Source: Psychroserpens luteolus
Lineage (GTDB): Bacteria; Bacteroidota; Bacteroidia; Flavobacteriales; Flavobacteriaceae
Length of the DNA stretch: 64,000 nt
NCBI RefSeq assembly: GCF_021032705.1
Contig: NZ_JAHVXI010000004.1
Span: forward strand, 186,001 to 250,000
Reading direction: 5' to 3'
Part shown: piece after piece, positions 845-6,703 of the stretch
Layout: each line of letters begins with the position of its first letter
How positions within the stretch are numbered: position 1 is the stretch's first letter
The notes under the pieces: generated by a model
Seen by the model: the letters and a program-made list of their open reading frames with translations, nothing else
The model's database searches: none
What the model was told of the DNA's origin: nothing
Made by a program: the position numbers and the translations under genes

Positions 845-1187
845 GTTATTGAAATTGTGATTTATATCACTTTTAAATATTTGGCCCCAAGCCTATGAAA
901 CAAAAATACCTATTTAATGTAGTTCATACTACAGCGTTATGTTCTTTTCTTTCCAAGTCTGTTCAGCAGATAATTTTAGGATCGTTTTGATACATGTCGT
1001 AATACCCAAATTGGTAATACACTTTCATAATATTTATTCAATATCTAATTAATCCAAAATACTTTTCATAGCTAGAAAGTATTTCCCTCATAGTGCTATG
1101 TGTTAGCTATAGTTAACACTGCATAACCTAATTAAACTAAAAATAAGGGATTTACTATGGTGCAATGCACCTTAAAAATTATTATGT
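845..1187 (+). promoter_or_regulatory. Long conserved 5' leader (copy A)
   Basis: This is a 343-base untranslated leader before the 1404-residue surface protein. It starts at the predicted transcription start. Block 1 (845-915) and block 2 (1021-1090) match blocks at 5659-5727 and 5729-5800 before the 265-residue paralogue, including an identical TTGGCCCCAAGCCTATGAAA. Copy A has about 106 extra bases between the blocks (916-1021). Hairpins seen: ATACTTT/AAAGTAT at 1059-1065/1076-1082, followed in both copies by a YCCCTCA motif, and GGTGC/GCACC at 1159-1163/1167-1171, ending 16 bases before the ATG. The function is unknown; a cis-acting RNA that controls translation or stability is inference. 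Confidence 0.65.
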
Positions 1188-4100
1188 ATGAAAGCTATTA
1201 AGAATTTTGGTAGACCCGCTATTACCAAATTATGTATTTTAATTATCTTCTTTTTGTTCAATACCATTACTGTATTTGGACAAGTGGTGAGTGAACAAGC
1301 ATATGAAGCTCCAGAAACTTCTGTTGTCATCTCAACTTCACCTGGTAATGTGAGTACACAATTACAACTATGGATGAAGGCAGATGCTTCAACAAGTACA
1401 ACTACAAATAATCAACGTGTGAATACTTGGGGAGATAATTCTTCAAACGCGTTTAGTATTGTAAAGGGATCAACTAACGGTCCTACCTATATAACAGATG
1501 CTATTAATTTTAATCCAGCACTACGATTTACAAGAAGTGGTGGAGAGTATATGAAAATAGCAACAGCTTCTATCGCAGGAACAGGTTTAGATATAACACC
1601 ATCTCCTGATGCTGCCATAACAAATCCTTCAAGTATGTCAATCTTTGCGGCTTTTTTAACCGATCAAAGTGGTGCAGGAACAATATTATCAAGAGCAACT
1701 GGGAGTAGTAGAAGTTATCAATTATGGTTAGGAGATAGAGATCGTGTAGTGCATTATACACTAGGAAGAACTTCAGGAACCAGCCAATCAGATCCCAATA
1801 GTGGAATTAACTACGGAATTACACATGCTAGAAATGATCCAAAAATTTCATCTTTAGTTGTTGATATTAGTGGAGCCTCACTAGCAAATGATCCTAATGA
1901 AGCATCAGGGAAAATAAAGAAATATGTAAACGGATACCTCGATCCATTAACAACTTACACAGATGGTGATGCTGGTTTTGGTACTGGAGAAACCACAGAT
2001 AAAGATGTTATCATTGGTGGAAGAAGAAATAATAGCAATACAGATATTGGTAATTTATTACAAGGAAGAGTTGCCGAAATCATTGTTTATGACAGAGCAT
2101 TAACAGCAGCTGAAAGACAAAAGGTTGAAACTTATATGGCCATTAAGTATGGCATTACTCTTGGCTATAATGATGAATACTACAGATGGGAAAACTCACC
2201 AAACCATACAACTACTTTTGGATATTCTGGAACTAGTAATGATTATGTGCTTTCTAATGGAACTTATGCTTGGACTGGATCGGATAACTCCGGATTTGGA
2301 TATAATGTTTTTGGTATAGCAAGAGATGATGACTCTGGTTTATTACAATTAAAATCTAAGAGTGTTCATGTTGCAGAAATAACTAAGGAAACCTCAGTAT
2401 TAACTATAGAAGATGAATCTAATTCTATTTCTAATGATAGAGATTATTTATTGGTTGGAAATAATGGAGCAGCAATTCAGTTGCAATCTTCAGTAGTTCC
2501 TGAGAGAGTATCTTCTACCATTGGTAGAATTTGGAAAGCTAGAGAAAGTTCTAATGATGTTGGTACTATTAGATTGGATTTTGATTTAAGTCAATGGAGT
2601 ATATCTGGTAGTACAGATCTAGAATTGATTATTTCAAGCAATAGTGACCTAACTAATTATAAAAATATTACTGGAACATATAATGCCACGACTAAAACCG
2701 TAAGCTTTACTGGATTGAATTTAGAAGATGGCGACTATTTCACCTTAGCGAAATTAGTAGAAATGAATGATTCATATCATTTCAATTTTGATGGTGTGTC
2801 TAACTATGTTGACCTTGGCGATAACTACGATTTAAATACTGGTAGTTTTACAATGTCTGCTTGGGTAAAAAGAACAAGTGGCACAAACAGATCTATCATC
2901 TCTAAGAGGACAAGTAATAATGCCGAAGGCTATGATTTTAAAATTGCTAACAATGGAAAATTTCAGGTGACATGGAGAGATGCTACCTCAAGTTTGCAAT
3001 ATCTTATTTCGTCGGTTGTTATTCCAACTGGAGAGTGGCATCATTTAGCATTTACGTATAACGGAACTAAAGGGACGCTTTATGTAGATGGTGTTGCTGA
3101 TGGTTCTGGTGTTAAGCCGGCTCCAGCTGCATCTACATCGTCTTTTATGATTGGAGCTTCTGGAGAAACACCTGGTCGTTTTTTTAATGGAGATATTGAC
3201 GAAGTTAGGATATGGGATGTTGAACTGTCTGAGGACCAATTGCGATTTATAATGAATCAAGAAGTTGAACAATCTGGTAGTAATGTAGCAGGTTCATATT
3301 TTATATCACAAGGGATTACACCTACAAAAAATGATATTTCTGCCATACCATGGACAAACTTAAAAGGTTATTTTCCGTTTTCACATTTAAGAGGAAATTG
3401 CTTATTTAATAAATCATCACAAACCACACTAAATGGTAGATTATACAATACACCTAATAGTGCTATTGATACTCAAACGGCTCCATTACCTTACAAGTCT
3501 ACACAAAATGGAAGCTGGGAATCAAGTTCTTCTTGGGTGAATGGTTCAGGGCAAACAATTCCTGGAGCGACATCTATATCTAACGCTGCCATTTCAGTAG
3601 ATTGGAATATTGTCGAAACATCTCATAATTTAACAATGGATAATGCTTCTATTACTTCAAAAAATAGATCATTTCTAGCTTTGGTTGTGAATTCAAATAA
3701 AATTACAGTCGATGGAAATAATTCGACAAATACTGGATATGGTTTAACAGTAACTCATTATTTAAGATTAAATGGTGATATTGACTTACAAGGTGAATCA
3801 CAATTAATTCAATCTGAAGCTAGTGACTTGGAAGTTGCAAGTTCTGGGTCTGTGGAAAAAGATCAGCAAGGAACTAGAGATATGTTTACCTATAATTATT
3901 GGTCATCACCAGTGGGTGTGTCGAGTACGACAGCTAATAATACCAACTATTCTTTGACTAGTGTATTTAGAGACGGAACAAACTCTTCATCACCATTAAG
4001 CATAAACTTTATTACAAATTCATACGATGGTACGTCTGGATCACCAATTGGTATTGCAGATTACTGGGTATGGAAATTTGCAAATCAACCAGACGATAAC

Positions 4101-5402
4101 TATTCTGCATGGCAGCATGTAAGAAGTACAGGAACTTTAAAACCAGGTGAAGGTTTCACAATGAAAGGTGTTGCCAATACTTCTGGTAATGTATCACAAG
4201 AGCAAAATTATGTTCTTAACGGAAAACCAAATAATGGAGATATCACATTGCCAATTAGTGCAGGAAACGATTATCTAGTTGGTAATCCTTATGCTTCTGC
4301 TATTGATGCACATGCCTTTATTCTAGATAATGCACCAACAATTGAAGGTGCAGGGAATACAACAGGTACGATCTATTTTTGGGAACATTGGGGTGGAGGA
4401 TCTCATATTTTAGCCGAATATCAAGGCGGTTATGCAACCTATAATTTAGCAGGAGCTGTTCCGGCAGCAGCTTATGGTACTGCTGATGAAGATGTAGATC
4501 AAAGTAATTTAATAGGTACTAAATTACCTGGGCGATATATTCCAGTTGGACAAGGGTTCTTTGTCGTTGGTGAAAATACTGGAACGATTAGATTTAAAAA
4601 TAGTCAGCGCGTATTTATGAGTGAAGCCACAAGCGCTTCAACATTTATGCGTAATGCCGCACCTAATCAGATTTCCGAAGATAGTGAAACTGAAACTGAG
4701 CCAGAGACTGAAGGTGGCTTAAGAATGAAGATTGGATTAAAATTTAATTCTTCTGGAACCTATACAAGAAAGATATTGGTAACTGCCGATGAGAATGCTA
4801 CTATGGATTATGATTGGGGATACGATGCTGAATTATATGATATCCAAGCAGATGATATGTATTGGTTAATAGCTGAAGGTAAATATGTGATTCAAGGTAT
4901 TAATAGTATGACCATTGAAACAGTTCTCCCTTTAGGGGTTAACGTTAACGATACTGGATCTAATACAATTTCGATTGATAAATTGGAAAACATACCTGAG
5001 GATATGGATATCTTTTTACATGATATCGAACTTGGATTGTATCATAATTTAAAAGAAGGAGACTATGAGGTAACCTTATCTTCGGGTATACATTTGAGTC
5101 GTTTTGAGCTTGTGTTTAATAATCAAGATACATTAGGAGTTGAAACAGCAGAGTTAGATGATGATACCATACAGGTTATTTATGATGGCGAAGCTGATGT
5201 TATTTCTGTACTAAACCCTAAACATTTAATTATTGATAGCATAGAACTGTTTACCATTCTTGGTCAGTCTGTATATGCATCAGATGATTTTGTAAATGAA
5301 AGTGAAATTAAAATAAAAACAGGTACATTAAGTGCTGGAGCTTATATTGTAAAAGTCGAAACCGAAACTGGAGGTTTCTCAACAAAAGTTATAGTTAATT
5401 AG
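1188..5402 (+). CDS. Large secreted LamG-type surface protein with T9SS sorting domain
   Basis: The protein has 1404 residues. A signal peptide ends near FGQ (residue 32). Residues about 50-330 form a concanavalin-like jelly-roll module (LQLWMKADAS start, 'AEIIVYDRALTAAERQKVE' end), followed by a region typical of these adhesin-like proteins to about 525. A LamG/pentraxin-type domain follows at about 530-690 (FNFDGVSNYVDLG, EWHHLAFTYNG, GDIDEVRIWD). The stretch 690-1165 is a beta-rich surface-protein region. After a short acidic linker (ETETEPETE), residues about 1177-1404 match almost the whole mature 265-residue protein encoded next door. The last 70 residues are a type A T9SS sorting domain (LGQSVY, GAYIVKV, TKVIVN). 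It is probably displayed on the cell surface and may bind carbohydrate or act in adhesion; this is inference. The ATG follows the structured leader. Confidence 0.85.
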   Translation: MKAIKNFGRPAITKLCILIIFFLFNTITVFGQVVSEQAYEAPETSVVISTSPGNVSTQLQLWMKADASTSTTTNNQRVNTWGDNSSNAFSIVKGSTNGPTYITDAINFNPALRFTRSGGEYMKIATASIAGTGLDITPSPDAAITNPSSMSIFAAFLTDQSGAGTILSRATGSSRSYQLWLGDRDRVVHYTLGRTSGTSQSDPNSGINYGITHARNDPKISSLVVDISGASLANDPNEASGKIKKYVNGYLDPLTTYTDGDAGFGTGETTDKDVIIGGRRNNSNTDIGNLLQGRVAEIIVYDRALTAAERQKVETYMAIKYGITLGYNDEYYRWENSPNHTTTFGYSGTSNDYVLSNGTYAWTGSDNSGFGYNVFGIARDDDSGLLQLKSKSVHVAEITKETSVLTIEDESNSISNDRDYLLVGNNGAAIQLQSSVVPERVSSTIGRIWKARESSNDVGTIRLDFDLSQWSISGSTDLELIISSNSDLTNYKNITGTYNATTKTVSFTGLNLEDGDYFTLAKLVEMNDSYHFNFDGVSNYVDLGDNYDLNTGSFTMSAWVKRTSGTNRSIISKRTSNNAEGYDFKIANNGKFQVTWRDATSSLQYLISSVVIPTGEWHHLAFTYNGTKGTLYVDGVADGSGVKPAPAASTSSFMIGASGETPGRFFNGDIDEVRIWDVELSEDQLRFIMNQEVEQSGSNVAGSYFISQGITPTKNDISAIPWTNLKGYFPFSHLRGNCLFNKSSQTTLNGRLYNTPNSAIDTQTAPLPYKSTQNGSWESSSSWVNGSGQTIPGATSISNAAISVDWNIVETSHNLTMDNASITSKNRSFLALVVNSNKITVDGNNSTNTGYGLTVTHYLRLNGDIDLQGESQLIQSEASDLEVASSGSVEKDQQGTRDMFTYNYWSSPVGVSSTTANNTNYSLTSVFRDGTNSSSPLSINFITNSYDGTSGSPIGIADYWVWKFANQPDDNYSAWQHVRSTGTLKPGEGFTMKGVANTSGNVSQEQNYVLNGKPNNGDITLPISAGNDYLVGNPYASAIDAHAFILDNAPTIEGAGNTTGTIYFWEHWGGGSHILAEYQGGYATYNLAGAVPAAAYGTADEDVDQSNLIGTKLPGRYIPVGQGFFVVGENTGTIRFKNSQRVFMSEATSASTFMRNAAPNQISEDSETETEPETEGGLRMKIGLKFNSSGTYTRKILVTADENATMDYDWGYDAELYDIQADDMYWLIAEGKYVIQGINSMTIETVLPLGVNVNDTGSNTISIDKLENIPEDMDIFLHDIELGLYHNLKEGDYEVTLSSGIHLSRFELVFNNQDTLGVETAELDDDTIQVIYDGEADVISVLNPKHLIIDSIELFTILGQSVYASDDFVNESEIKIKTGTLSAGAYIVKVETETGGFSTKVIVN

Positions 5403-5429
5403 ATAGTTTTTTGAATTTTATGTCAACTT

Positions 5430-5459
5430 AAAGATCACCTTTTTTGGTGGTCTTTTTGT
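5430..5459 (+). terminator. Rho-independent terminator
   Basis: An AAAGATCACC...GGTGGTCTTT stem with a T-rich loop and a following TTTTTG run lies 28 bases after the stop of the large surface protein. It separates this gene from its downstream paralogue, so the two are transcribed independently. Confidence 0.85.
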
Positions 5460-5658
5460 TTTTACTGAATACTATGTTCGTTATGTGCGAAATTTCGATG
5501 ATTTTTAAGCTATGTATTCTGATATTCAATCATTTATATGTTGTTAAATAAATGTCACTTAATCGATATTTTATGCAATTTCAATCATTATAACGAGTAT
5601 TTTATGCATCTAAACGAGTATTTCACAGCACCTCATATTGCCGTTCTATATTTGAACT
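5460..5658 (+). promoter_or_regulatory. Upstream control region of the 265-residue surface protein
   Basis: This region has two copies of a CGA-TATTTTATGCA type element. One is at 5564-5587, a partial match. The other, at 5594-5617, matches 20 of 24 bases with 779-802 before the upstream paralogue. In the second copy the CGA triplets are 21 bases apart, and a third CGAGTATTTCA half-site follows. A perfect -7 box TATATTTG is at 5647-5654, placing the start near 5660, where the conserved leader begins. The two-turn spacing of direct repeats is what LytTR-type or other response regulators often bind; which regulator acts here is not visible. Confidence 0.6.
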
Positions 5659-5905
5659 GTTATTGAAATTGTGTGTTACATACAATTAAATATTTGGCCC
5701 CAAGCCTATGAAATAAAATACCTATTTGACTTTCATAATATTTCTTTCAATTTCAAATTAATCCAAAATACTTTTCGTAATAGCGAAGTATTCTCCCTCA
5801 ATGTGTAAATACTAAATGTCAATTTAGTTCGCGCACAACATTTAATAAAAAAACAAGAGAATTTAACTAAGCAATGATGTAAGGCATCATTAAAAACCTA
5901 CTATT
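5659..5905 (+). promoter_or_regulatory. Long conserved 5' leader (copy B)
   Basis: This 247-base leader is related to 845-1187 but lacks the 106-base middle insert. Block 1 is 5659-5727 and block 2 is 5729-5800. The hairpin ATACTT/AAGTAT (5768-5773/5786-5791) sits where copy A has ATACTTT/AAAGTAT. Just before the start codon, AATGATG/CATCATT (5873-5879/5885-5891) takes the place of the GGTGC/GCACC stem of copy A. The stem sequence differs but the position relative to the ATG is the same (14 against 16 bases), which suggests that the structure is kept. The sequence between 5801 and 5872 has diverged. Confidence 0.65.
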
Positions 5906-6703
5906 ATGAAAACGATTACAAATTTTCAAATTTCAAAAACAACAAGAGTATCTGCTTTACTTTTTTGTATTGCATTAATGTGTTCAAATTTTGTATTTGC
6001 TAATACGCCTAACGATCCAGACCTAAGAAAGAAAATAGGTTTACAACTTAATTCTGCTGGAACTTACGAAAGAGAAATATTAGTTGTAGAAGATGAAAAT
6101 GCAACAGAAGGATACGATGCAGATTATGACACTGCAATTGACAATATACAATCTGATGATATGTATTGGTTAATTGATCAAGGAAAATATATTAACCAAG
6201 CTATTGGTGAAATTAACGAAGAGACTGTAATTGCTTTAGGCATTCACACAAATACAAGTGGAATAAACACAATTTCAATTAACAAATTGGAAAATATTCC
6301 AAACGCAATGAAGATTTTTGTTCACGATATTCAAACAGGTATATATCACAGTATTAAGGATGGTGCATACGAAGTTAATCTTCCAGCTGGTCTTTACTTA
6401 AACCGTTTTGAAATTGTATTCATGCAACCAGAGACATTAAGTACGACAGATTTTGATGCAGATAAATCATTAGATATAATGTTTGATACATCTGCAGATC
6501 AAATTAAGATATTAAACAATGCAAATTTAAAAATAGATACTGTTGAAGTATACTCTATCCTTGGACAATCTGTTCACAGATCGAATGCTTCAAACGCAAA
6601 TAACGAATTAAGTATAAACACTAATACAATGACAACTGGTGCTTATGTTGTGATTGTAAAAGCTGAAAACGGTATTAACTCGAAAAAGATTTTAGTTAAT
6701 TAG
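5906..6703 (+). CDS. Secreted T9SS protein, paralogue of the C-terminal module of the 1404-residue protein
   Basis: This 265-residue protein has a signal peptide of about 33 residues (ALLFCIALMCSNFVFA). From LRKKIGL (about residue 40) to the C-terminus it aligns without large gaps to residues about 1177-1404 of the upstream gene, and roughly half the positions are identical by eye. Shared words include DDMYWLI, KLENIP and YHS/YHN. It ends in a type A T9SS sorting domain (ILGQSVHR, TGAYVVIVKA, SKKILVN). There is no LamG or other N-terminal module, so the protein is in effect the sorting module with its adjoining beta domain alone. Function unknown; it may be an anchor or partner of the larger protein. 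It has its own promoter and leader. Confidence 0.8.
   Translation: MKTITNFQISKTTRVSALLFCIALMCSNFVFANTPNDPDLRKKIGLQLNSAGTYEREILVVEDENATEGYDADYDTAIDNIQSDDMYWLIDQGKYINQAIGEINEETVIALGIHTNTSGINTISINKLENIPNAMKIFVHDIQTGIYHSIKDGAYEVNLPAGLYLNRFEIVFMQPETLSTTDFDADKSLDIMFDTSADQIKILNNANLKIDTVEVYSILGQSVHRSNASNANNELSINTNTMTTGAYVVIVKAENGINSKKILVN

Follow-up and report, generated by a model that had tools for sequence, protein, structure and literature searches.

A structured 5′ leader RNA shared by two tandem T9SS surface-protein genes of Psychroserpens-type Flavobacteriaceae, and a possible start-codon switch

Two tandem genes, here called A and B, lie in the 64-kb stretch of a Psychroserpens-type Flavobacteriaceae genome that we analyzed as a whole (the window), and each is preceded by a long leader whose character as a structured RNA is well supported by comparison among related genomes. 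Judged from sequence, these leaders appear to form a cis-regulatory RNA family that is new, though of a general kind already known. We further propose, with a probability of about 0.45, that the leader is a cis-acting mRNA element that would control translation of its own surface-protein gene by means of a two-state switch at the start codon. The earlier note on this DNA had offered an RNA switch, a thermosensor and a protein-binding site as possible functions; among these, the start-codon switch seems to be the best-fitting reading.

Gene A (1188-5402, forward strand, as are all features below) encodes 1404 amino acids with a LamG domain and a T9SS sorting domain. Gene B (5906-6703) encodes 265 amino acids, also carries a T9SS sorting domain and is paralogous to the C-terminal portion of gene A. 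A terminator-like site lies behind gene A at 5430-5455 (one found versus 0.1 expected in shuffles), and therefore gene B probably forms its own transcription unit. The gene-B protein is almost wholly one domain that terminates many large T9SS-type proteins, and 6-17 matches occur in each of the 23 genus genomes.

In F. psychrophilum, the −7 box TAnnTTTG is reported to lie at −12 to −5, and the median length of the 5′ untranslated region is given as 24 bases (PMC9723704). The boxes that the earlier note had used to place transcription were confirmed, in the form TAnnTTTR, at 833-840 (TACATTTA, gene A) and at 5647-5654 (TATATTTG, gene B), and by the box rule of that report the predicted +1 is position 845 for gene A and 5659 for gene B, exactly where helix P1 begins. 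The end of the box lay four bases 5′ of P1 in 21 of the 26 copies that we compared when read by script, and in 22 when the gene-A box of the window's own genome (G000_A) was read by eye. Counted from the predicted +1 to the base before the ATG, the leader of gene A occupies 845-1187 (343 bases) and that of gene B occupies 5659-5905 (247 bases); lengths of about 250-340 nt would be unusually long if the predicted starts are right. It had also been claimed that conservation begins at the predicted +1. This holds insofar as P1 begins there; however, a CGA-N18-CGA tandem upstream of the −7 boxes, at 779-802 and 5594-5617, is conserved as well. Of the 26 copies, 22 have the tandem ahead of their −7 box, versus 0.5% of base-shuffled controls, and the distance from one CGA to the next is 21 bases, or two helical turns. 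LytTR-type regulators use a similar spacing. The tandem is likely to be an activator site common to both genes.

When positions 5640-5905 were searched against their own genome, the blocks 845-915/5659-5727 and 1021-1090/5729-5800 were recovered at 89% (E 1.3e-17) and 86% (E 8.2e-14), which bears out their reported conservation; the next match had an E of 0.14. Comparison shows the following folded RNA from the predicted +1 onward: P1, P2, an arm composed of P3, P3a and P3b that contains conserved bases, the stretch TTAATCC, P4, the stretch CTCCCTC, P7 and the ATG. In leader A, the closing helix P1 pairs 845-852 with 1038-1045, and the P2 hairpin at 857-870 pairs 857-861 with 866-870. P3 (875-880 with 1030-1035) is followed by P3a (883-893, GGC/GCC around a conserved CCCAA loop) and P3b (894-900 with 1023-1029). 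Inside P3b lies an arm of about 105 nt (916-1020) with predicted hairpins of its own. The P4 hairpin (1058-1083) pairs 1058-1064 with 1077-1083 around a loop at 1063-1074, a purine segment AGGGA at 1146-1150 is a possible P6 partner of TCCCT at 1084-1088 (a pairing read by eye from alignments), and the P7 hairpin before the ATG occupies 1159-1171 (GGTGC/GCACC). In leader B, P1 pairs 5659-5666 with 5747-5754 and has two outer mismatches in this copy; P2 occupies 5668-5686 (5668-5675 with 5679-5686), and the arm spans 5688-5743, with P3 at 5688-5693 and 5738-5743, P3a at 5696-5706 and P3b at 5707-5713 and 5731-5737. P4 (5767-5792) pairs 5767-5773 with 5786-5792 around a loop at 5772-5783, and P7 lies at 5873-5891 (AATGATG/CATCATT). 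P6 of leader B, found with RNAalifold and in the alignment, joins ATTCTC at 5790-5795 to GAGAAT at 5857-5862 (overall 5790-5862) and competes with P4; by eye, it is broken in G011_B and G022_B. In most copies, AUGs are found inside helices P7 and P3b, and the bases conserved outside the helices are CCCAAGCC, TTAATC and CCCTC.

Covariation supports helices P1, P2, P3, P4 and P7, as would generally be expected of a structured leader. In alignment A1, which covers 23 of 26 copies (22 distinct; without G006_A, G009_B and G018_B) and 37 pairs in six helices, 90.4% of the cells were paired, and 11 pairs, in 25 cells, were changed on both sides. The covariation score was 0.110 versus 0.066 in shuffles, none of 500 of which reached it, and versions of the structure slid along the alignment scored at most 0.057. 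Changes on both sides were present in P1, P2, P3 and P4; the variation in the three pairs of P3a consisted of G-U plus one unpaired cell, and P3b showed no covariation in A1, its sequence being conserved and the exceptions breaking the helix. P4 alone, in 27 rows, scored 0.080 versus 0.022 (1 of 500 shuffles). The earlier note had pointed to a hairpin before the ATG that changed its stem sequence and kept its pairing, and this was borne out across the group: P7 folds in 26/26 copies with a mean z of −3.9 (weakest G017_A, z −0.7) and has a covariation score of 0.191 versus 0.068 in shuffles (0 of 500), with three pairs altered on both sides, a number that 53 of the 500 shuffles also reached. 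Alignment A4 held 25 of 26 copies plus G015 and G150, and alignments A5 and A6 held 25 of 26, without G006_B. Because the sequences are related, all such counts from shuffles and permutations are optimistic and are not probabilities. Every one of the 26 leaders folds with a lower energy than its 30 shuffles do on average (z from −1.2 to −5.9, mean −3.8). Diverged copies were also seen by eye to keep a helix in place with other sequence, P1 in G009_B and both P2 and P4 in G015. Inexact matches to the P7 pattern occurred in all 23 genus genomes, often above the backward control, and an excess was also present in genomes without the leader (for G021, 20 versus 0 in the backward control); such matches may reflect composition, because the pattern is near-palindromic. 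We set aside the idea that the P7 hairpin is used genus-wide. Among the matches listed, the pattern occurred exactly at four places, all of them in these leaders.

Two copies of the leader occur in 13 of the 23 genus genomes, and all 26 are found at this locus, in sense and directly before gene A or gene B. The search for further copies with covarying stems that had been called for thus yielded them, and the claim of a long, structured leader on T9SS surface-protein genes now extends to 26 copies in 13 genomes with covarying helices. One further genome, G015, has a single diverged copy before its sole A gene. In G013, which lacks genes A and B, a weak, damaged remnant of the leader lies between the flanking genes (L116:1501-1599; G013:C3:82710-82808). 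The remaining eight genus genomes, one of which (G012) is 88% complete, contain only distant paralogues of the gene-B protein, at best 24-38% identical. A model built from seven B leaders (R1) recognized all 13 unseen A leaders, nine of them in two halves, which the extra arm separates, two whole and two in part. Across the 23 genus genomes, R1 matched 14 and a model of the P4 module (R2) matched 15; the G015 copy, which R1 missed, and that of G150 are matched by R2 by construction, both being rows of its alignment A4. In 349 genomes of the family, R1 found one convincing relative, G150, which belongs to another genus and carries its copy at the same locus, before a gene for a 1074-aa T9SS-type protein and beside the same YdeI-like gene. 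The TTAATC-P4-CCCTC module alone is recognizable there (L137, about 3098-3280). A second family match by R1, in G292, lies inside a 487-aa open reading frame and was set aside as chance. R2, with G150 among its rows, added nothing in 397 family genomes or in 395 order genomes; in large scans the filters are stricter, and weak matches are lost. When 146 genomes were searched at the DNA level, 55 matched at E ≤ 0.01, with strong matches in the 13 genus genomes; those outside the genus were short (best E 7e-5). The core pattern was found in 22 stretches of a named genome collection, 15 of them from this group, with P. algicola, P. burtonensis and Arcticiflavibacter luteus among the named records; the other seven come from other bacteria, one of them unclassified, and as R1 matched none of these at E ≤ 1 we took them as chance. 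We rejected a mobile or widespread repeat as a description of the element: once half matches belonging to a single copy are set aside, the genus scans show it no more than twice in any genome. Comparison with Rfam 15, including Flavo-1, as the earlier note had advised, assigned the leaders to no family: nothing in the window reached a gathering score, and the one and four matches of the two leaders up to E 5 were all far under the gathering scores and did not include Flavo-1. Searches of the available literature for riboswitch, untranslated-region or RNA-motif work on Psychroserpens returned none, and wider searches returned nothing on this element.

The domains of the leader are not uniformly kept. 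Most A copies have the arm corresponding to 916-1020, though a short one in G017_A, and so does G001_B, whereas 8/13 B copies lack it; G009_B and G018_B have lost most of the P2-P3 region and retain P1, P4 and P7; G150 lacks the 5′ domain, and the Arcticiflavibacter luteus copy lacks the P4 module. Because of these losses, no fixed aptamer is implied.

The P4 loop, TTTTC(A/G)TAATAG, is complementary to the start region, CTATTATGAAAA. The loop of leader B can pair in full with 5901-5912 (one G-U), and that of leader A is partially complementary to its start region, at −5.5 kcal/mol. Matched loop-start duplexes had a mean of −8.1 kcal/mol. When the loops were set against 35 other gene starts from the window, the mean was −3.6, or −5.0 for the nine among these that begin with ATGAAA; against the starts of other copies, the loops did nearly as well (mean −7.2). 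In 10,000 permutations, matching was as good in none overall and in six within A and within B. RNAalifold selected the loop-start pairing in both sets, 13 A rows and 11 B rows (without G009_B and G018_B). In the folding models, this pairing and P4 are mutually exclusive. At 37 °C, the modeled probability of the loop-start pairing was at least 0.77 in 23 of 26 copies, in which P4 was at most 0.22; G014_A, G017_A and G022_A fell short of this level. When modeled at 10 °C, 17 of 26 favored the pairing. Shuffling the 12 loop bases alone raised the mean openness of the start region from 0.40 to 0.56 (15 shuffles each). The anti-start 7-mers TTTCATA or TTTCGTA occurred 1.5 times per leader on average versus an expected 0.1, a figure for TTTCATA alone and so not quite like for like. 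Compared with whole shuffled leaders, the openness was 0.40 versus 0.48, and 31% of the shuffles were equally low on average; leader A of the window was more open than its shuffles (0.54 versus 0.35, every shuffle being more closed), and so was its near-twin, G006_A. Direct loop-start covariation is weak: two cells were changed on both sides, a number reached by 43 of 500 shuffles, with a score of 0.199 versus 0.168 (1 of 500). G017_A and G022_A have lost the loop sequence, and so, by eye, has G015_A; the genes behind the first two are the only two of the 26 that start with ATGGAA, but the loopless G015_A starts with ATGAAA.

We therefore offer the two-state switch as a tentative, partly supported proposal, because closure of the start region does not clearly exceed that in shuffles and the loop-start covariation is weak. 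In the first state, P4 would be formed and its loop kept off the start codon. In the second, the 3′ strand of P4 and the adjoining pyrimidines would pair with the downstream purine segment to form P6, and the released 5′ strand and loop (UUUUCAUAAUAG) would bind CUAUUAUGAAAA at the start codon, thereby preventing initiation. The 5′ domain might tip the balance when a ligand, a protein or a condition acts on it, and P7 may hide upstream AUGs and set the ribosome entry site. A more specific version, which we regard as unlikely, is a lineage-specific switch, sensing a ligand or protein, that would work by start-codon mimicry: CUAUGAAA in P3b would imitate the start and compete with two antisense elements, UUUCAUA in P3b and UUUUCAUAAUAG in the P4 loop, and P1-P3 would decide whether the second antisense covers the AUG. 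If true, this would suit a phylum that seldom uses Shine-Dalgarno sequences and would act on T9SS surface proteins.

The same leader could be a stability or insulation element, in which the 5′-terminal helix would protect the mRNA while P7 would hold the A-rich initiation site open, with no switching. The position of P1 at the predicted +1, the presence of P7 in 26/26 copies, the two B copies that drop most of P2-P3 and retain P1, P4 and P7, and the start of the window's own leader A, more open than in its shuffles, would all agree with such a role, which however does not account for why the P4 loop is complementary to the start, or for the conserved, unpaired TTAATCC and CTCCCTC; we consider it fairly unlikely. 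Those unpaired stretches, together with CCCAAGCC, might instead be bound by a protein that represses or activates translation and perhaps senses the export of surface proteins, in line with both genes being T9SS substrates by their sorting domains. A protein of this sort becomes quite unlikely in our estimate given that no candidate is linked to the leaders and that only two of them turned up in each genome. For an RNA thermometer, the loop-start helix, which is short, A/U-rich and able to cover the AUG, would melt on warming and free the start codon, and the genus name suggests cold-adapted hosts. However, 17 of 26 copies in the model retain this helix at either temperature, 10 or 37 °C, and G000_A, G006_A, G004_B, G001_B and G016_B run contrary to opening on warming, with P4 formed at 10 °C and the loop-start helix at 37 °C; we consider a thermometer very unlikely.

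Two further readings seem scarcely probable. The resemblance of the leaders might merely go back to a recent duplication that took a gene together with its promoter, without any function at the RNA level, A and B being paralogous and the leaders homologous. However, a single branch (support 100/98) divides the A from the B proteins in a tree built on their common C-terminal domain from 25 rows (without G004_B, G016_B and the G018 A protein), which places the split before the divergence of these genomes; the fold has been retained in both copies, and together these points argue against a mere recent copy. The covariation of the helices across both copies likewise contradicts it, and where the genes have been lost (G013), only the damaged remnant of the leader is left. 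Transcription attenuation or a leader peptide is hardly more credible. A mini-ORF beginning ATG AAA lies in P3b of many copies and reads MKQKYLF in six A leaders, but its ATG has been lost in G001_B, G011_B, G014_B and G017_B, six copies keep the same bases across a stop at codon 3, and a terminator-like site was found in neither leader of the window. We rejected this possibility because the short ORF is not conserved and the window's two leaders have no such site.

A start-codon switch would bear on a particular feature of translation in this phylum. In Bacteroidota mRNAs, Shine-Dalgarno sequences are described as rare and start regions as normally little structured, AUG is underrepresented near the starts in Bacteroidetes, and in F. 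johnsoniae pairing is normally lower between −20 and +20 relative to starts, with structure tuning initiation (PMC6847099). Switching by hiding a Shine-Dalgarno sequence, a common mechanism of translational control, is therefore mostly unavailable. A conserved RNA with a loop complementary to the AUG, if it acts as proposed, would give a testable answer to how such genes can switch, and the compensatory changes and natural domain losses of the family are ready-made mutants. The literature searched on this theme, as far as its available text goes, describes no RNA-level control of T9SS cargo genes.

Translational riboswitches that sequester the start codon have two mutually exclusive helices, one of them over the start. 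Exclusive helices are also modeled here; however, the 5′ domain is missing in some of our copies. RNA thermometers place an A/U-rich helix over the start codon, and a similar helix is available here, but its temperature behavior in the model is inconsistent. Flavo-1 is likewise a structured RNA motif of Flavobacteriaceae inferred by comparison; it is described in either orientation and often outside transcribed regions (PMC9723704), whereas the present leaders stand in sense before gene A or B in 26 of 26 cases. Closer in kind are the structured 5′ regions of F. psychrophilum, also a member of the Flavobacteriaceae, some of which are without an Rfam match, as are our leaders; the genes named for them in the available text (pheA, hisG, ftsY, acsA, alaS and rimP) differ from ours in not encoding T9SS surface proteins (PMC9723704). 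Because 64 such leaders were found in F. psychrophilum (PMC9723704), structured leaders are a known kind of element in this family.
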